From Olivibacter domesticus (GTDB lineage: Bacteria > Bacteroidota > Bacteroidia > Sphingobacteriales > Sphingobacteriaceae): 64,000 nt of DNA. The notes below the pieces were generated by a model. The model was not told the origin of the DNA and ran no database searches. It was given only the letters and a program-made list of their open reading frames with translations. The stretch is taken from the NCBI RefSeq assembly GCF_900109575.1, contig NZ_FOAF01000006.1, forward strand, positions 62,001-126,000, written 5' to 3'. Of this stretch, positions 22,975-56,536 are shown piece after piece (within the stretch, counting starts at the first letter, position 1; each line of letters opens with the position of its first letter). Both the position numbers and the translations under genes were made by a program.

Positions 22975-23160
22975 ATGAAAGCACAAGCAGAGAACAACCA
23001 GATTTCAATCAACTCGGAGTCAAAAAGCTTAACAGAACAACTCACTCCATTAGATACCGACGTTTTATACACAACGTATGGTGGCTCCATTTTACCTTCG
23101 GCGCCCGAAATTTATGATTCCATTGTAGATTTCGTTAGGCGAGGCATAAAGGCATTGTAG
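22975..23160 (+). CDS. Small peptide with possible double-glycine leader, first gene of the export locus
   Basis: 61 residues. Gly36-Gly37 (in LYTTYGG) would give a 37-residue leader and a 24-residue amphipathic product that starts SILPSAPEIYD and ends RRGIKAL. It lies 110 bases before the HlyD-type gene and shares its strand. The leader lacks the Glu-Leu-Ser...Glu-Glu pattern seen in the two peptides at the other end of the locus, so cleavage by the C39 peptidase is only plausible. It could be a secreted signal, an unusual bacteriocin or a non-processed accessory peptide. It matches no family I know. Confidence 0.65.
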   Translation: MKAQAENNQISINSESKSLTEQLTPLDTDVLYTTYGGSILPSAPEIYDSIVDFVRRGIKAL

Positions 23161-23224
23161 TAAATAAGCAATTTCTTTTTTTATTAAACGTATTGTCTAA
23201 CAATTTCAGGGCAATGATCATTAA

Positions 23225-23254
23225 GCCTGCCTAAAGGGTATCTTTTGGGCGGGC
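23225..23254 (+). terminator. Intercistronic hairpin between small peptide and HlyD genes
   Basis: GCCTGCCTAAAG pairs with CTTTTGGGCGGGC (two G-T pairs) around a short loop, followed by AT-rich sequence. It probably acts as a leaky terminator or mRNA-stabilising stem that keeps peptide message above transporter message (inference). Confidence 0.5.
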
Positions 23255-23270
23255 AATAATATTTCTTACC

Positions 23271-24455
23271 ATGAGCAAAAAGTTGATTTTTCCTGTAGAT
23301 ATAGTTGAGTACACTACAGAGCAGCATTTCTTTGAGCATAATAACAGCAGTAAAATTATTTACCTGACGGTGCTCTTAGCCATTGTAGCTGCATTTACAT
23401 CCCTTTTTTTTCTTCGGGCAAGTGTCAGCGTCAATGGGGGAGGTATTCTTACTTCTGTCAATGAAAGGAACACTATAAAGGCGCCTGCATCAGGAAGGAT
23501 AGATCAGGTTTATATCAAACTCAACCAAGAAGTAAAAGCAGGGGACACCTTATTTAGTATACAAACCAACATTTTAGAAGAGCAATCGGATTATTTAGTC
23601 AAACGAAAAGCAGAGTTGCACCAACGTATTGTCGACCTCCAGAAACTTACGCAATTAGGTGCTACCATCCACACTACAAAAAATATATCCCTGTTATCGC
23701 CCGTATATAGACAGCAATTCAATCTTTATCGGCAGCAGCATCTCGAAGCACATTTACAATTAGAAAACGCGCGCACCATTTATCAACGTAATAAAATTCT
23801 GCACGACAGAAAAGTTTTATCCGACGCCGAATTTGATAAATTCAATTTTGACTACAAAACAGCGCTTAGTAAGCAAAAACTCTTAGACGAACAGCAGGTC
23901 AGCCAATGGCATACCGATCTCAACGATCTCCAAACTGAATTAATGGACCTATCCTCTCAAAACGAAAAATTTAAACAAGAGCGAGATCTATATACCGTAA
24001 GAGCTCCCATTGATGGTTCTGTGCAACAGCTAAATGGTATCTCGTCCGGCAGTTTTGTTTCTTTGGGAGAATCAGTAGCCGAACTATCCCCTAGCTCAGG
24101 GCTCATTGCTACCGTAAATGTTGCTCCAAAAGACATCGGTTTATTGCAGCTAAATATGCCGGTAAACATTCAGGTCGACGCTTTTAACTATAACGAATGG
24201 GGGATGGCCAAAGCCAGCGTCATTGACATTTCAAAAGACGTTTATATCGACCAAGATCGTACGCCTACGTTTCAGGTTAAATGTAAACTCAAAAAACATT
24301 CGCTGTATTTAATGAACGGTTATGAAGGTCGCTTAAAGAAAGGTATGAGTTTTCAAGCCAGGTTTCAGGTTACCAAACGCACACTTTTCCAATTGCTTTA
24401 CGACAAAGTTGACGATTGGCTGAACCCCGCGAAAAGAAGCTCTTCCGCTGTATAA
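23271..24455 (+). CDS. HlyD-family periplasmic adaptor of a peptide exporter
   Basis: 394 residues. Cytoplasmic N-terminus, one membrane helix at about 30-50 (IIYLTVLLAIVAAFTSLFFL), lipoyl-like half-domains (KAPASGRIDQVYIKLNQEVKAGD near 70, VRAPIDGSVQQLNGISSG near 245), a long helical hairpin between them, and a beta-barrel region to about 375. This is the membrane-fusion partner that links the ABC transporter encoded 18 bases downstream to an outer-membrane channel. No TolC-like gene is present, so a TolC from elsewhere must be used. Confidence 0.94.
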   Translation: MSKKLIFPVDIVEYTTEQHFFEHNNSSKIIYLTVLLAIVAAFTSLFFLRASVSVNGGGILTSVNERNTIKAPASGRIDQVYIKLNQEVKAGDTLFSIQTNILEEQSDYLVKRKAELHQRIVDLQKLTQLGATIHTTKNISLLSPVYRQQFNLYRQQHLEAHLQLENARTIYQRNKILHDRKVLSDAEFDKFNFDYKTALSKQKLLDEQQVSQWHTDLNDLQTELMDLSSQNEKFKQERDLYTVRAPIDGSVQQLNGISSGSFVSLGESVAELSPSSGLIATVNVAPKDIGLLQLNMPVNIQVDAFNYNEWGMAKASVIDISKDVYIDQDRTPTFQVKCKLKKHSLYLMNGYEGRLKKGMSFQARFQVTKRTLFQLLYDKVDDWLNPAKRSSSAV

Positions 24456-24473
24456 AACTAAAATGTCTCTACC

Positions 24474-26642
24474 ATGAAAAAAATAAAAGTTAAGCAGCAT
24501 GACATTACCGATTGCGGCGCAGCCTGTCTCGTTTCAGTCGCCGCTTTCCATAAGCTCAAGCTTCCCATTGCAAGAATTCGGCAGCTCGCAAATACCGATA
24601 AAAAAGGCACCAATGTGATGGGCATGATCCAAGCCGCCAACAAAATTGGCTTCACCGCAAAAGGCGTCAAAGGCCCCTTCGATAGTCTCTTTAAAATACC
24701 GCTACCCGCTATCGCTCATATGGTGCTTAAAAATGGCCTGCATCATTATGTAGTGATTTACAAAGCAACTGAAAAGTACATAGAAATTATGGATCCGGGC
24801 GATGGCCAGCTTCATCGGCTAACACATAAAGATTTTCAAGAACAATGGAGTGGCATACTCCTTCTGTTGGCTCCCGGAGAAGAGTTTACAGCCCGTACCG
24901 AAACGGTTTCTATTACCAGTAGATTCCTGTTCTTGTTAAAACCGCATCGTTCCACGCTACTTCAGGTACTTTTCGGTTCAGTTGTGTACACCATATTAGG
25001 CTTGTCGACAGCCATCTTTGTACAAAAAGTTGTAGATCAAGTGTTGCCCAATGAAAACCTTAATCTCCTTAATCTGATGGGCGTCATTATGGTTGTACTC
25101 CTCCTGCTCCAGTTTTTTATCAATCATTCCAAAACGATTTTCACGTTAAAAAGCGGCCAGCAGATTGATGCACGCTTAATATTGGGTTACTATAAACACC
25201 TACTCCGTCTTCCGCAACAATTCTTTGATACCATGCGTGTAGGAGAAATCATCTCCCGTATAAACGACGCCGTTAAAATCAGAACCTTCATTAACGATGT
25301 ATTGGTAAATTTTGCGGTGAATATATTCATCGTTATCTTCTCCTTTCTCTTGATGTTCACCTATTACTGGAAGCTGGCCTTAATTATGATTGTACTGATT
25401 CCGATTTACTGTATTATCTATTACATTTCAGACCGGCTGAATAAGAAAACGCAAAGGGCTTTGATGGAACATACAGCAGACCTGGAAACCCAGCTCGTGG
25501 AATCGGTCAACGCAGCAGGCACCATCAAACGTTTCGGATTGGAAGATTTTGCGAATATCAAAACCGAGAACAGGTTTATTAAGCTTTTGCAAACCGTTTA
25601 TCGTTCTTCCGTGAATGCCCTCTGGATCACCAATACAAGCAGTTTTTTCTCCGGGTTATTTACGGTTATTCTTTTATGGGCCGGCGCAAACTTTGTTATC
25701 ACCGGGCATATAACACCGGGAGAACTCCTCTCGTTCTACGCCATAATAGGCTACTTCACTTCCCCTGTAAGTAATCTTATTGGCATGAACCGCAGCATAC
25801 AAGATGCTGTGATAGCGGCCGACCGGCTTTTTGAAATCATGGATTTAGAACGCGAAGAGCAGGAAAACAAAGCCATTTTATATCCAGAAGACATCGGCGA
25901 TATTACATTTAAAGACGTCAGCTTTCGTTATGGATCACGGGCACCCGTATTTGAGCATCTCCATTTGCATATTAAAAAAGGCCATGTTACCGCCATTGTA
26001 GGCGAAAGCGGTTCCGGAAAAACAACCATACTATCGCTACTTCAACGCATATATCCCATACAAGAAGGCGGTATATTTATTGGGCAGCTAGACATTAAAT
26101 ATATAACCACCGAAAGCCTCCGGCAAGCAATCGCCGTTGTTCCGCAACACATCGATCTTTTTGCAGGAAATGTAATAGAGAACATCGCAGTAGGTGATCT
26201 CTCGCCAAACATCAATCGCATGATAGAGATCTGTAACACTCTTGGCATCATGCCATTTATAGAGAAGCTACCCGGCGGTTTTGACACCTATTTAGGAGAA
26301 AATGGCACGGCTTTATCTGGCGGACAACGGCAGCGCTTAGCCATCGCAAGAGCCCTATACAGAAATCCCGAAATCCTGATCCTTGATGAAGCCACCTCCT
26401 CCTTAGATTCCTCCTCCGAGCAGTATATACAAGAAGCCGTTGCACAGCTCCGCAATCAGGGGAAAACTATCATTTTAATTGCCCACCGGTTAAGTACTGT
26501 GATAAATGCCGACAAGATTATCGTCATGCAGAACGGTCAGGTAACAGAGCAGGGCTCCCACCAGGCACTCATGGAAAAAAGGGCTGCCTATTACAAGATG
26601 TGGCAACCACAAACACCTTTCTTACAAGATAACGTAGTATAA
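24474..26642 (+). CDS. Peptidase-containing ABC transporter (C39 bacteriocin-type exporter)
   Basis: 722 residues, normal for the class. C39 cysteine-peptidase domain about 1-135: oxyanion Gln8, catalytic Cys14 (DITDCGAAC), His91 (GLHHYVVIY) and Asp107 (EIMDPGDG). Membrane domain about 155-440 with six helices. ATPase domain with Walker A GESGSGKTT at 510, signature LSGGQRQR at 614, Walker B ILILDEATSSLD near 636 and the H-loop in IAHRLST. It should cleave after double-glycine leaders and export the core peptide. The matching leaders are encoded at 27075 and 27321. All catalytic residues are present, so it should be active. Confidence 0.97.
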   Translation: MKKIKVKQHDITDCGAACLVSVAAFHKLKLPIARIRQLANTDKKGTNVMGMIQAANKIGFTAKGVKGPFDSLFKIPLPAIAHMVLKNGLHHYVVIYKATEKYIEIMDPGDGQLHRLTHKDFQEQWSGILLLLAPGEEFTARTETVSITSRFLFLLKPHRSTLLQVLFGSVVYTILGLSTAIFVQKVVDQVLPNENLNLLNLMGVIMVVLLLLQFFINHSKTIFTLKSGQQIDARLILGYYKHLLRLPQQFFDTMRVGEIISRINDAVKIRTFINDVLVNFAVNIFIVIFSFLLMFTYYWKLALIMIVLIPIYCIIYYISDRLNKKTQRALMEHTADLETQLVESVNAAGTIKRFGLEDFANIKTENRFIKLLQTVYRSSVNALWITNTSSFFSGLFTVILLWAGANFVITGHITPGELLSFYAIIGYFTSPVSNLIGMNRSIQDAVIAADRLFEIMDLEREEQENKAILYPEDIGDITFKDVSFRYGSRAPVFEHLHLHIKKGHVTAIVGESGSGKTTILSLLQRIYPIQEGGIFIGQLDIKYITTESLRQAIAVVPQHIDLFAGNVIENIAVGDLSPNINRMIEICNTLGIMPFIEKLPGGFDTYLGENGTALSGGQRQRLAIARALYRNPEILILDEATSSLDSSSEQYIQEAVAQLRNQGKTIILIAHRLSTVINADKIIVMQNGQVTEQGSHQALMEKRAAYYKMWQPQTPFLQDNVV

Positions 26643-26673
26643 TAATAATCCGATACAAATTAAAAAAGATCCT

Positions 26674-26991
26674 ATGAAGTTATTTATGTATATCGATCGG
26701 GTAAACCGGTTACACGAGTTAATCAAAAGGAAAAGTACAGGAAAGCCCGAGACCTTAGCCAAGAAATTAAATTTATCCGTTTCCAGAGTGTATCAGATTA
26801 TTGAGGAGCTAAAACTTATGCAAGTTCCCATTGCCTATTCCCGTACCATACAAAGCTATTATTATACCAATGATTATGAAGTACTCATAGATGTACAGCT
26901 ACGTCCGCTCGAAGAAAAAGAGCACTATCATACCAGTGGAGGAGGTTTTCAAAAAATTCATACATTATTGCTCCCTACAATTTTATTATAG
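26674..26991 (+). CDS. Small winged-helix/HTH protein in the peptide-export locus
   Basis: 105 residues. An N-terminal HTH_11-like winged helix (residues about 8-55, with GKPETLAKKLNLSVSRVYQI) is followed by a wing around YYYTNDYEVLIDV and a short tail. It lies 31 bases after the transporter gene and 83 bases before the first double-glycine peptide gene, so it is a likely local regulator of the peptide genes (inference). It has no ligand-binding domain, so how it senses anything is unclear. Confidence 0.78.
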   Translation: MKLFMYIDRVNRLHELIKRKSTGKPETLAKKLNLSVSRVYQIIEELKLMQVPIAYSRTIQSYYYTNDYEVLIDVQLRPLEEKEHYHTSGGGFQKIHTLLLPTILL

Positions 26992-27009
26992 TGAAAGGTT
27001 TTACCTTGG

Positions 27010-27056
27010 GTTTGTTAAATCACAGTCAAACCCCGGGCTATAATCGGGATGGTTAA
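27010..27056 (+). promoter_or_regulatory. Stem-loops in front of the double-glycine peptide genes
   Basis: GGGTTTG (27010-27016) pairs with CAAACCC (27029-27035). The second arm overlaps a further possible stem (CCCG/CGGG, 27034-27052), so two exclusive folds are possible. Such a switch or terminator could separate peptide expression from the transporter genes. No clear -7 element is seen here. Confidence 0.4.
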
Positions 27057-27074
27057 ACTTTAAAAAAATACATT

Positions 27075-27278
27075 ATGAAAACAATGGAAATGGAAAATTT
27101 TGGCGTTCAGGAGCTGAGCTTAACAGAAATGGAAGAAAACACAGGCGGTTTATTTCCTTTAGTAATCGGAGGTATCGTTATCACTGCTAAAGCAGCAGGT
27201 TGGATCGGAGCAGGAGTAGCCGCTGCCGGTATCTTCGGAGCAGGTGCTTATGTAGGCTACAGATCAGCTGCAGAATAA
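27075..27278 (+). CDS. Double-glycine leader peptide, class II bacteriocin-like
   Basis: 67 residues. Leader of 25 residues ending EENTGG, with the ELSLTEME pattern recognised by C39 peptidases. The 42-residue core is very rich in Gly and Ala (GWIGAGVAAAGIFGAGAYVG), with several GxxxG motifs as in helix-helix packing two-peptide bacteriocins, and ends YRSAAE. It is presumably processed and exported by the transporter encoded upstream. The target or function (antibacterial or signalling) is unknown. Confidence 0.82.
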   Translation: MKTMEMENFGVQELSLTEMEENTGGLFPLVIGGIVITAKAAGWIGAGVAAAGIFGAGAYVGYRSAAE

Positions 27279-27320
27279 TAATTATTTTGTTTAATCGTTA
27301 ATAAAATATTAGATTTAATT

Positions 27321-27509
27321 ATGGAAGCACTATCATTGGATTTAAACAAGATTGGCTTAACAGAACTTTCCATCGAGGAACGAGAAGAAGTTCAAGGAGG
27401 ACTAATATTGGCCCCATTCCTTGCTATAGGAGCTGCTGCTGCCGCTGGCGTAGCTATATACGAAGCCGGTAAAGCCACTGGTGAGTTCATTTATTATGTA
27501 ACACATTAA
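27321..27509 (+). CDS. Double-glycine leader peptide with GEFIYYVTH tail
   Basis: 62 residues. The 27-residue leader (GLTELSIEEREEVQGG at its end) closely parallels the leader of the previous peptide. The 35-residue core starts LILAPFLAIG, is Ala-rich, carries GKATG and ends GEFIYYVTH. That tail is repeated in the next small gene. The pairing of two leader-bearing hydrophobic peptides fits a two-peptide bacteriocin, but this is not proven. Confidence 0.82.
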   Translation: MEALSLDLNKIGLTELSIEEREEVQGGLILAPFLAIGAAAAAGVAIYEAGKATGEFIYYVTH

Positions 27510-27521
27510 TAATATTGAATT

Positions 27522-27647
27522 ATGGAAAAGTATGCATATTTATTAGAAAACAAGTTCATTAAAATCGCCTTAGTGGGTCTCTCAATCTATTTTATTTTTA
27601 GGTTAGGAAAGAGCTTTGGAGAGTTCTTGTACTACGTAACCCACTAG
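27522..27647 (+). CDS. Leaderless 41-residue membrane peptide sharing the YYVTH tail
   Basis: Begins MEKYAYLLENKFIKIALVG, has one hydrophobic helix (about 12-28, IKIALVGLSIYFIF) and ends GKSFGEFLYYVTH. This matches the tail of the preceding peptide at 11 of 13 residues or conservatively, whereas most codons differ by synonymous changes (for example TAT/TAC, ACA/ACC, CAT/CAC). It has no double glycine, so it should not be a C39 substrate. It starts 12 bases after the previous stop and is followed by a terminator, so it is co-transcribed. Possible roles are a membrane immunity peptide that mimics the exported peptide, or a pore partner (inference). Confidence 0.72.
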   Translation: MEKYAYLLENKFIKIALVGLSIYFIFRLGKSFGEFLYYVTH

Positions 27648-27680
27648 TTTAATATGCGAATATAATTTTCCAACCTTTTT

Positions 27681-27709
27681 AAAGGCAGCGAGTACATTTC
27701 GCTGCCTTT
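27681..27709 (+). terminator. Terminator of the peptide locus
   Basis: AAAGGCAGCG / CGCTGCCTTT, a 10-bp perfect stem followed by a T-rich stretch, about 34 bases after the last peptide gene. Confidence 0.85.
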
Positions 27710-27752
27710 GTTATTTTCTTCAATCTGTCTCCCGTTATTTTCCATCTAAACT

Positions 27753-28703
27753 TTAAACTACATATGTTGTTTTATTCTGGCTACCGATACTTTTAAAGAA
27801 ATTTAAAGAAACACCTTTTTTCAAGTCTCTACTAGCAGTAGCTGAAGACAGTTCCTTAAAAACATTCATATAGTCTTTTCTAGTAAATTCGTTAATACCC
27901 AAACTTAAAAAATACGACAGCCTATCAATGTCTTTCAATATCCTACCTGTATAATTTAGCATATCAGCTAACGATTTATCAATCACGCCTAACATATATT
28001 CAATAAAATGAGTTGATTTACCGCTCTTGTCACTTAAAGCCAAAGATTTATAGTATTCATCTTGTGTTTTACTGATCAACGTTTCAAAAGACAGGTATTC
28101 GAAAACTGGAAATTCATTCATCAATATAACCGTTTGCCACAGTCTGCCCATCCTTCCATTTCCATCCAAAAAAGGATGTATAAACTCCATTTCATAATGA
28201 AAGACACAACTTTTTATTAAAGTTAATTCATCTGAATCTTTAAGATATTGAAATAGATCGTTCATTAAATATGGAACATTCTCATAAGGAGGGGCTATAT
28301 GTTCCACATTTACTCCTTTTACAATTCCTACACCCTTTTTCCTATATTGGCCCGCACTGTTAATTAAACCCGTCATTAATTCACGGTGTGCCCTTTGAAA
28401 GCTTACATTCGAAGCGTATTTAAATTCCCTCAGGTTTTCATAAACTTTAATTGCGTTTAAAACTTCTAAGATATCTTTTTTTGGCCCTATAACTCTTTTA
28501 TGTTCAATCAGTTCCGTAATCTGCTCTTCCGTTAATGTGTTCCCTTCTATTTGCAAAGAAGAATGAATTGTTTTAATTCTATTTTGCTTCCGTAATTGAG
28601 GCGATTGCCTACTTAAATAATTCGCATTCACTTCCCCCAATTTCTCAGACACAGAACTGATCAGTTTTAGTATTTTTGGAGTAATATCGTATGGAGGTTT
28701 CAT
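27753..28703 (-). CDS. Fic-family AMPylating protein with N-terminal inhibitory helix
   Basis: Fic proteins usually transfer AMP from ATP to a target hydroxyl group. 316 residues from the ATG at 28703. Three further Met codons up to 28715 are possible but overlap a palindrome that looks like an operator. Inhibitory motif S49-x-x-x-E53-G54 (SSLQIEGN), which makes this a class II Fic with the block on the N-terminal side. Catalytic motif HPFLDGNGRMGR at 176-187 is intact. The C-terminal about 80 residues resemble a winged-helix segment. It is monocistronic, converges on the peptide locus, and no separate antitoxin is seen, as expected for class II. Confidence 0.93.
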   Translation of the reverse strand: MKPPYDITPKILKLISSVSEKLGEVNANYLSRQSPQLRKQNRIKTIHSSLQIEGNTLTEEQITELIEHKRVIGPKKDILEVLNAIKVYENLREFKYASNVSFQRAHRELMTGLINSAGQYRKKGVGIVKGVNVEHIAPPYENVPYLMNDLFQYLKDSDELTLIKSCVFHYEMEFIHPFLDGNGRMGRLWQTVILMNEFPVFEYLSFETLISKTQDEYYKSLALSDKSGKSTHFIEYMLGVIDKSLADMLNYTGRILKDIDRLSYFLSLGINEFTRKDYMNVFKELSSATASRDLKKGVSLNFFKSIGSQNKTTYVV

Positions 28704-28727
28704 TGATAGCATCATTTGATACTATCA
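28704..28727 (-). promoter_or_regulatory. 24-bp near-perfect palindrome at the fic start
   Basis: TGATAG-C-ATCA-TT-TGAT-A-CTATCA is symmetric except for one pair and the two centre bases. It abuts the Fic start codon, so a bound dimer would block expression. Fic-type proteins with a winged-helix tail sometimes self-repress; that is inference here. Confidence 0.5.
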
Positions 28728-37513: not shown

Positions 37514-37966
37514 ATGAACACTTTAAAAACGAACATCATGAAAACCTTAATGACAACTTTCTTCGCAGCATTTATCTTTGTATCGGCAAGCGCCTTTACA
37601 AAAGCTGAAAACAAATCATCCCGTTTAGCCACCGCAGATAACAGTATAAATCTGTACATCGAAACCATCACAAATGGAAATGTGGAAAACATGGATACGC
37701 TTTTCGGTAGCCAGTTCATTCTGAACACCAACGCTAATGGCAAAGTTATTAGCCACAGTAAAACACAAATCATTGGTTTTTTAAAAGGACAAAAAAATGT
37801 AAAACAAAACTGTAGTGCTACCTATATTGTAATGGAACAAAGTGAGGATTATTCAATCGCTAAAGTAGAAATGAAATACCGTGATTTCACCAAAGTAGAT
37901 TATGTAACATTCAGTAAGGAAGGTACTGATTGGAAAGTTAACCAGGTAGTTACTACTTACAAGTAA
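37514..37966 (+). CDS. Secreted NTF2-like (Lumazine_bd_2/SnoaL-type) protein, copy A
   Basis: 150 residues. Signal peptide from the second Met (MKTLMTTFFAAFIFVSASAFTKA), so initiation at 37538 is also possible. The body has the NTF2-like cone pattern: helix DNSINLYIETITNGNVENMDTLF, then the strands FILNTNANGKVISHSK, ATYIVMEQSEDYSIAKVEMKY and DWKVNQVVTTYK. Such proteins are usually periplasmic binding or enzyme folds without a fixed role. It is a near-identical paralogue of the gene at 47316, and short pieces of the same gene lie at 54738 and 56537. Confidence 0.82.
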   Translation: MNTLKTNIMKTLMTTFFAAFIFVSASAFTKAENKSSRLATADNSINLYIETITNGNVENMDTLFGSQFILNTNANGKVISHSKTQIIGFLKGQKNVKQNCSATYIVMEQSEDYSIAKVEMKYRDFTKVDYVTFSKEGTDWKVNQVVTTYK

Positions 37967-47315: not shown

Positions 47316-47768
47316 ATGAACACTTTAAAAACGAACATCATGAAAACCTTAATGACAACTTTCTTCGCAGCATTTATCTTTGTATCGGTAAGCGCTTTTA
47401 CAAAAGCTGAAAACAAATCATCCCGTTTAGCCACCGCAGATAACAGTATAAATCTGTACATCGAAACCATCACGAATGGAAATGTGGAAAACATGGATGC
47501 GCTATTCGGTAGCCAGTTCATTCAGAATACCAACGCTAATGGCAAAGTTATTAGCCACAGTAAAGCACAAATCATTGGTTTTTTAAAAGGACAGAAAAAT
47601 GTAAAACAAAACTGCAGTGCTACTTATACTGTAATGGAACAAAGTGATGATTATTCGATCGCTAAAGTGGAAATGAAATACCGTGATTTCACCAAAGTAG
47701 ATTATGTAACATTAAGCAAGGAAGGTGCTGATTGGAAAGTTAACCAAGTCGTAACCACCTACAAGTAA
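47316..47768 (+). CDS. Secreted NTF2-like protein, copy B
   Basis: 150 residues, differing from the copy at 37514 by only about eight residues (for example SVSAFT, NMDALFGSQFIQN, VTLSKEGADW). The similarity runs about 140 bases upstream and 45 bases downstream, so the whole gene with its promoter was duplicated. The Met at codon 9 (base 47340) is the alternative start with the better signal peptide. It converges with the four-gene lipoprotein operon and marks the left edge of a repeat-bounded block. Confidence 0.83.
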   Translation: MNTLKTNIMKTLMTTFFAAFIFVSVSAFTKAENKSSRLATADNSINLYIETITNGNVENMDALFGSQFIQNTNANGKVISHSKAQIIGFLKGQKNVKQNCSATYTVMEQSDDYSIAKVEMKYRDFTKVDYVTLSKEGADWKVNQVVTTYK

Positions 47769-54545: not shown

Positions 54546-54727
54546 GGGCATAATTCACAGCCAAGCTATTTTAATCAAGAAATCGATTTTCGTATAGGTT
54601 GAAGTAAATGTTTGTCTTATAGGCTTATGTTAATTAAATTCTTGTTTAGATTGATTTCCCACAAAAGTAAATAAAAAACAATAACCTTCAAAAATAAATT
54701 TTTATAGAACAGGGTGAAAATTATTCC
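54546..54727. repeat. 182-bp direct repeat carrying a promoter, copy 1
   Basis: Nearly identical to 56355-56536 over its whole length; only a few single-base differences are seen. It covers the upstream region of the minus-strand lipoprotein operon, including the promoter. Such a long, almost unchanged non-coding match implies recent duplication or conversion. Confidence 0.9.
54662..54693 (-). promoter_or_regulatory. Promoter of the lipoprotein operon
   Basis: On the minus strand TTTTG, a 19-base spacer, then TACTTTTG, an excellent match to the Bacteroidota promoter (TTTG and TAnnTTTG). The start codon at 54490 lies about 165 bases downstream of the predicted initiation site. Confidence 0.7.
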
Positions 54728-56354: not shown

Positions 56355-56536
56355 GGGCATAATACACAGCCAAGCTATTTTAATCAAGAAATCGATTTTC
56401 GTATAGGTTGAAGTAAATGTTTGTCTTATAGGCTTATGTTAATTAAATTCTTGTTTAGATTGATTTCCCACAAAAGTAAATAAAAAACCATAACCTTCAA
56501 AAATAAATTTTTATAGAACAGGATGAAAATTATTCC
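56355..56536. repeat. 182-bp direct repeat carrying a promoter, copy 2
   Basis: Matches 54546-54727 base for base apart from a few substitutions (for example CATAATACACAG against CATAATTCACAG). It lies upstream of the small lipoprotein/lectin unit on the minus strand. Confidence 0.9.
56471..56502 (-). promoter_or_regulatory. Promoter of the lectin unit
   Basis: Same TTTTG-N19-TACTTTTG arrangement as in repeat copy 1. The first start codon (56187) is about 277 bases downstream, so the leader RNA is long and diverges from copy 1 after the repeat ends. Confidence 0.65.

Follow-up and report, generated by a model that had tools for sequence, protein, structure and literature searches.

Work on HetC in Nostoc describes ABC exporters with a C39 peptidase domain as removing a leader, usually one with a double glycine (GG) at its end, in a step coupled to export (PMC10986499). 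It also raises the idea that cleavage of a C39 substrate might yield a fragment acting on a transcriptional regulator, and it names PatS, HetN and HetP as possible sources, none of them demonstrated there (PMC10986499). The bacteroidetocins, like the peptides described here, are GG-leader peptides of Bacteroidota encoded with a C39-type exporter; their description reports four cysteines and a thiol oxidoreductase gene, with no immunity gene recognised (PMC6671954). The Cdz system of Caulobacter, as its excerpted account has it, resembles our locus in its two small glycine-zipper peptides, its type I secretion and its small membrane protein, which in Cdz confers immunity (PMC5380434). For the clusters selected in a survey of Bacteroidales RiPPs, the available text reports that homologues of described immunity proteins were absent (PMC10352776).

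Here we describe a peptide-export locus in a 64,000-nucleotide stretch of the Olivibacter domesticus genome (hereafter the window; the genome is 6.78 Mb in 23 contigs). Judging from sequence, we consider it probable that this is a class IIb-like bacteriocin locus in which a small leaderless peptide, P4, provides immunity and a winged-helix (HTH) protein is a regulator with a C39 leader of its own.

Organization of the locus

P1, an HlyD-type adaptor, a C39 exporter, the HTH protein, P2, P3 and P4 are all encoded on one strand (plus in the window), and the locus is flanked by TonB-receptor and SusD genes. An earlier sequence-only reading of this DNA had described the adaptor, the exporter, the small winged-helix protein and four peptide frames, and we found all of them in place. 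Directly past the locus, on the minus strand, lies a gene for a Fic-domain protein (27753-28715; PF02661, 5.6e-19). At locus L023 of a congener (genome G003), a TupA-like ATP-grasp gene comes next after the locus, where the window has the Fic-domain gene.

P1 (22975-23160) is a 61-residue peptide with a predicted core, SILPSAPEIYDSIVDFVRRGIKAL, after a GG at residues 36-37. The sequence-only reading had counted two leadered peptides; the leaders of P2 and P3 stand, but the count passed over P1, whose GG is also in leader register (L at -12, L at -7 and T at -4, with the acid at -8 absent). In the four other genomes of its genus P1 had no relative above chance level (best E there 0.43), and no similarity was seen to the peptides of the exporter loci L029 and L030; its core was weakly similar to the upstream peptide of locus L025 (shuffle p 0.02). 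As there was no convincing relative, we rejected P1 as a member of a wider family, and it is the least supported frame of the locus.

A terminator-like hairpin between P1 and the adaptor gene (23225-23254, plus strand), found by consensus scan only, is a possible attenuator. Another after P4 (27680-27710, plus strand), with arms complementary at 11 of 11 positions, is the probable transcript end. Sigma-70-like sites in a promoter scan did not exceed those in shuffled sequence, and a motif scan found no TTTG/TANNTTTG pair, which we take to be the Bacteroidota-type promoter motif, within the locus. Elsewhere in the window, promoter-like TTTG...TANNTTTG sites occur on the minus strand as two nearly identical pairs, one at 37741-37769 and 47543-47571 and the other at 54662-54692 and 56471-56501. 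The intergenic sequence upstream of P1 (22640-22860) is a patchwork of fragments from a dispersed repeat (CAACTCACAACT-like and others), for which the genome has 42 matches, this stretch among them. We considered direct repeats 5' of P1 as an operator and rejected them, as they are part of this repeat.

Exporter and adaptor

The adaptor (23271-24455, 394 aa) matched HlyD_3 (PF13437, E 2.7e-17) and scored 139 bits against TIGR01843, below the cut-off of 208.65. The exporter (24474-26642, 722 aa) contains Peptidase_C39 (PF03412, E 5.2e-34; residues 6-136), ABC_membrane (PF00664, E 1.1e-43) and ABC_tran (PF00005, E 5.6e-30), and scored 515.5 bits against TIGR01193, just below the cut-off of 523.85. 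Over its full length it matches both PCAT1 (4ry2, E 1.2e-171) and ComA (8hf4, E 5.2e-111). Its Cys14, His91 and Asp107 align with the Cys, His and Asp of PCAT1, presumably the catalytic residues of that protein, in agreement with the intact triad noted in the sequence-only reading. All the features of a C39 ABC exporter, namely a C39 domain with Cys/His/Asp together with ABC membrane and ATPase domains, were found, and at the level of sequence the earlier proposal that the peptides would leave through this transporter is well supported.

The best named relatives of the exporter are from Mucilaginibacter and Pedobacter. Exporter loci of these two genera (L063, L064, L066, L068, L072, L076, L084, L089 and others) share GG-leader proteins of 77-82 aa that are Gly/Ser-rich (NGGGLLGGNDSS...SFSNETQDGDESS) and unlike bacteriocins. 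The O. domesticus genome also has a second C39 exporter, 62% identical, at 2826-6537 of L029 (C10), with a GG-leader peptide upstream of its HlyD gene and neither an HTH gene nor P2-P4 seen alongside. The congener locus L030 has two GG-leader peptides of the same kind.

P2 and P3 resemble class IIb bacteriocins

P2 (27075-27278, 67 aa) and P3 (27321-27509, 62 aa) are encoded by adjacent double-glycine precursor genes with leaders in register (residues 1-25 and 1-27, respectively). Their cores, LFPLVIGG...YRSAAE and LILAPFLAIGAAAAAG...GEFIYYVTH, are 42 and 35 aa long, contain GxxxG motifs (GAYVG in P2, GKATG in P3) and lack cysteine. We rejected a bacteroidetocin assignment because of this lack of cysteine in P2 and P3 and the absence of a thiol oxidoreductase from the eight proteins scanned (22975-28715).

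The congener locus L023 has the block HlyD-C39-HTH-P2-P3-P4 in the same order. Relative to L023, P2 is 73%, P3 58% and P4 78% identical, and differences at the three codon positions number 11/11/38, 22/12/41 and 8/4/20, respectively; the third-position excess and the kept order set these three frames above chance. In Pontibacter sp. FD36 (L130), HTH-P2-P3-P4 follow the C39 gene in the same order. The conservation beside the transporter that the sequence-only reading required of the small frames was found for P2, P3 and P4 (L023, L130) and not for P1. The P2-P4 peptides are nevertheless sparse among relatives: P3 matched at E<=0.1 in only 4 of 100, of which one is the window's own genome, another (G031) has a P4-like gene alone, and a third (G092) has a weak match with an internal stop.

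Against TIGR03949 (lactobin A/cerein 7B; cut-off 21.5), P3 of the window scored 18.2 bits and P2 of the window had no match. Seven related peptides were also run: the Pontibacter P2 orthologue (31.6) and an L121 peptide (22.8) exceeded the cut-off, an Aquimarina P3-like peptide fell below it (19.9), and those of L105, L110 and L120 and the Pontibacter P3 had no match. The recurrence of HTH-P2-P3-P4 and the score of the Pontibacter P2 orthologue make a class IIb-like two-peptide bacteriocin the best reading, and the two-peptide assignment made from sequence alone is well supported at that level. A tblastn search of a plasmid collection with P2 as query gave no match (E<=0.01), and we rejected a plasmid-borne family for this peptide.

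P4 shares the tail of P3

P4 (27522-27647) is a 41-residue peptide with one hydrophobic helix, and no leader was found in its entire stop-to-stop frame of 42 codons. The earlier description of four small peptides is thus misleading if taken as a secreted set, as P4 is leaderless and probably an immunity peptide rather than a secreted core. For the same reason we rejected the idea of four equal bacteriocins. What that description overlooked is a common tail: the last 14 residues of P3 (AGKATGEFIYYVTH, 27465-27506) and P4 (LGKSFGEFLYYVTH) are identical at 10 of 14 positions. Seven of these 10 residues are specified by different codons, which points to a resemblance that is either ancient or maintained by selection. 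Its position, its membrane helix, the tail echo and its single-gene relatives make P4 an immunity-gene candidate; most likely it is the immunity peptide, and it would act by toxin mimicry.

With a three-row profile (E<=0.01), 27 of 399 family genomes, counting that of the window, and 10 of 25 genera gave P4-like matches; the lower half of this list is weak and takes in matches within longer frames. No C39 match was found within ~1.5 kb on either side of the 12 strongest P4-like places outside the window's genus (L035-L046). Across an alignment of 17 hand-picked P4-like proteins, only the two glycines of GxxxG are invariant.

We surveyed 130 loci for similar echoes, comparing 45 leaderless hydrophobic same-strand frames near 252 GG peptides (97 loci) with the tail of the neighbouring core and judging significance by composition-keeping shuffles. 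At p<=0.005, 11 of the 45 echoed a core tail, against an expectation of 0.23; at p<=0.001 nine did, against 0.04. These 11 genes come from ten loci (window, L023, L105, L110 with two genes, L114, L120, L121, L137, L138 and L207) and fall, in our judgement, into some six or seven families of peptides: L023 belongs with the window family, and L114, L137 and L138 nearly duplicate one another. Since it was the window pair that led us to this test, that pair is not independent evidence. Thus the same tail echo recurs in unrelated peptide families. It is not universal, as 34 of the 45 candidates, including those of L025 and L028, lay above p 0.01 (30 lay above 0.05). An earlier filter with cross-locus ranking gave 7 of 46 below 0.01, and the hydrophobicity limit of 1.9 left out the P4 of Pontibacter itself (1.81) and an L127 look-alike (1.85). 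At 8418-11116 of L179, several leaderless small membrane frames lie between GG peptides and the exporter; the tails of some, such as GYVCGKIAYYICH, resemble a local core and are not among the significant echo pairs.

A double-glycine leader in the winged-helix protein

The HTH protein (26674-26991, 105 aa) is a putative regulator. In its AlphaFold model the first 70 residues form a confident winged helix (block means 84-96 pLDDT), a separate helix at 81-87 stands just before a GG, and the tail falls below 50. The best Foldseek match, NiaR (7cv0), is weak (E 0.03), as are the profile matches (PADLOC WYL, 2e-5; HTH_11, 3.9e-4, below the cut-off), and a PDB sequence search with the HTH profile gave nothing convincing (best E 0.014). 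PF09431 (SPIN90) was the sole Pfam model to pass for this protein (29.3, cut-off 27), and we took it as chance. A tblastn search recovered homologues in 26 of 89 exporter loci, and a profile search did so in 43 of 395 class genomes, the window's own included.

Near its C-terminus the HTH protein carries a C39-type double-glycine leader that the sequence-only reading had missed (residues 79-90, LEEKEHYHTSGG; 26908-26943). It has L at -12, E at -8, T at -4 and GG, followed by a short tail (GFQKIHTLLLPTILL, 26944-26988) that is predicted to be released if the site is cut. In a first alignment of HTH homologues from exporter loci, 12 of 13 had a GG near the end. We then surveyed 77 HTH frames from 70 loci: GG was present in 37 of the 51 whose region includes a C39 peptidase and in 2 of the 26 whose region does not (p 3e-8). 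The contrast held after dereplication at 60% (22/32 versus 2/20, p 4e-5) and in regions from the class scan alone (9/15 versus 2/26, p 5e-4). One of the two exceptions has a truncated transporter (L204), and the region of the other ends 645 bases from the gene (L190). The A4 profile behind many of these homologues includes the GG columns; with a GG-free profile that stops before them the contrast was weaker, at 12 of 20 with C39 versus 4 of 11 without. Among these four exceptions, L204 and L260 have transporter remnants, L259 ends 43 bases past the gene, and in L264 genes for GG peptides follow immediately downstream, with an exporter absent in ~6 kb. Most HTHs from regions without C39 are shorter proteins in which this segment is missing. 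The 14 of 51 that have C39 in the region and no GG carry AG (L120, L181 and L203, to which the GG-free search adds L254 and L255), SS (the first of two Aquimarina copies in L114, L129, L137 and L138) or no such segment.

The 24 non-redundant GG sites have L/I/V at -12 in 18, E at -8 in 16 and I/V at -4 in 19, frequencies close to those of 89 GG-peptide leaders of such loci, which were themselves chosen by a leader rule. The pattern L/I/V/M/F at -12, E/D/Q at -8, I/V/T at -4 and GG occurred at 19 of the 24 sites, compared with 17 of 1728 background GG sites in long frames. These data suggest that the HTH protein is a regulator docked, and perhaps cut, by the exporter. At 6239-6571 of L264, a homologue stops exactly after the GG with no tail, which speaks for docking or cutting and not for the tail.

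The HTH tail evolves fast in some clades and not in others. Three close pairs, from Flavobacteriaceae and Aquimarina and picked for testing, had more nonsynonymous codons in the tail than in the HTH plus leader: 5/12 versus 1/76 (L121/L126, p 1e-4), 4/12 versus 1/76 (L119/L126, p 1e-3) and 5/13 versus 8/76 (L114/L129, p 0.02). These tails still keep clade motifs, and no tail excess was seen in the g82 clade. A second copy of the HTH tail at 10193-10903 of L126, joined via unread bases after a peptide gene, is probably an assembly artefact.

Proposed mechanism and alternatives

We infer the following for export, killing, immunity and regulation. P2 and P3 would be made as double-glycine precursors that the C39 transporter and HlyD adaptor cut and export, and the cores of P1-P3 would all leave the cell if C39 leader excision holds here. 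In the membrane of related bacteria, P2 and P3 would work jointly by GxxxG-type pairing of their helices. P4 would stay in the producer membrane, copying the GxxxGEFxYY tail of P3 and occupying the partner or docking site of P3 but making no pore; from the GxxxG tail that the two have in common, P4 may either pair with P2 or block at the site of P3. The HTH protein would regulate the locus, and docking or cutting of its leader by the exporter could link expression to exporter state or release a short peptide.

P4 could instead be a third, leaderless toxin partner, or a general small membrane protein, in which case P3 would imitate its tail as a way to a target complex. P4-like proteins do occur as single genes in several genera (the family scan gave at most two in any genome, and Pontibacter L130 has three), and the two glycines invariant among the 17 would fit such a protein. 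However, we think this rather unlikely, as presence in so few genomes is unlike an essential target, and the echo tracks whichever toxin family is local, its sequence differing between loci. Glycine-zipper peptides retained on the producer surface, in a Cdz-like contact-dependent system, are very unlikely here. By eye, and with Cdz compared by description only, the locus does have leadered glycine-zipper peptides and type I secretion genes together with a small membrane protein, as CdzABCDI does in the excerpted account (PMC5380434). The cores of 42 and 35 aa contrast with CdzC and CdzD precursors of 86 and 84 aa, and the three membrane segments predicted for CdzI in the same account are not matched by P4, with 41 aa and one hydrophobic stretch (PMC5380434).

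The exported peptides may also be signals rather than killers, with P1 or the HTH tail as pheromone and the HTH protein as responder. The position of P1, set apart ahead of the exporter, and tails that outpace the HTH and leader in some close pairs while keeping clade motifs are consistent with signalling. We nonetheless regard it as distinctly unlikely, since P2 belongs with the class IIb family and has an immunity-like partner, the g82 clade lacks the tail excess, the L264 homologue lacks the tail, and the eight proteins scanned include no kinase or oligopeptide importer, although TonB-receptor and SusD genes flank the locus. The GG leader in the HTH protein may, alternatively, be a relic of its evolution or a structural feature that makes no contact with the exporter, given the 14 homologues that lack GG despite a C39 peptidase and the four that keep it without one in the GG-free search. 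The leader register, the enrichment with C39, the mostly shorter HTHs elsewhere and the setting of those four (three beside remnants or GG peptides, the fourth at a contig end) lead us to doubt this, and we favor a class IIb-like locus with P4 as immunity peptide and a leader-bearing regulator.

More tentatively, and with rather less than even confidence, we suggest for Bacteroidota loci that an HTH transcription factor is a C39 substrate whose C-terminal leader docks in the peptidase, so that availability of the exporter and its traffic set expression of the toxin genes and the tail may be released as a signal, and that in these loci a leaderless membrane helix mimicking the tail of the local toxin confers immunity. 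If true, a regulator bearing the cutting site of the exporter would be a new coupling of secretion and transcription. As a rule, a leaderless helix echoing the toxin tail would pair immunity genes with toxin specificities across the phylum.

Comparison with known systems

Our search of the literature, which covered listings and passages of open-licence papers, turned up neither a winged-helix protein carrying a C39 leader nor immunity through copying of a toxin tail. The HTH protein resembles HTH_11/WYL-type winged helices in its predicted fold and weak profile matches and differs from them in its length of ~100 aa, the lack of a WYL domain and its C-terminal C39 leader and tail. Compared with Cdz, as the excerpted description gives it, the cores are shorter, P4 has a single segment and shares toxin sequence, and the HTH protein has a leader.

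The exporter is like PCAT1/ComA-type exporters in its full-length match; it differs in its HlyD partner and in scoring just below TIGR01193, and it may recognise the regulator as well. With class IIb systems (TIGR03949; lactococcin G type) the locus shares adjacent double-glycine precursors, a C39 exporter and Gly/Ala-rich cores with GxxxG. It departs from them in the HlyD partner, the leader-bearing HTH protein and the scores of P2 and P3 below the TIGR03949 cut-off. The immunity proteins known from class IIb systems in lactic acid bacteria are larger than P4, and the candidate in their place here is a one-helix peptide that copies a toxin tail. We place the predicted toxins and their exporter among the class IIb-like, C39-exported bacteriocins, as a new member or variant.
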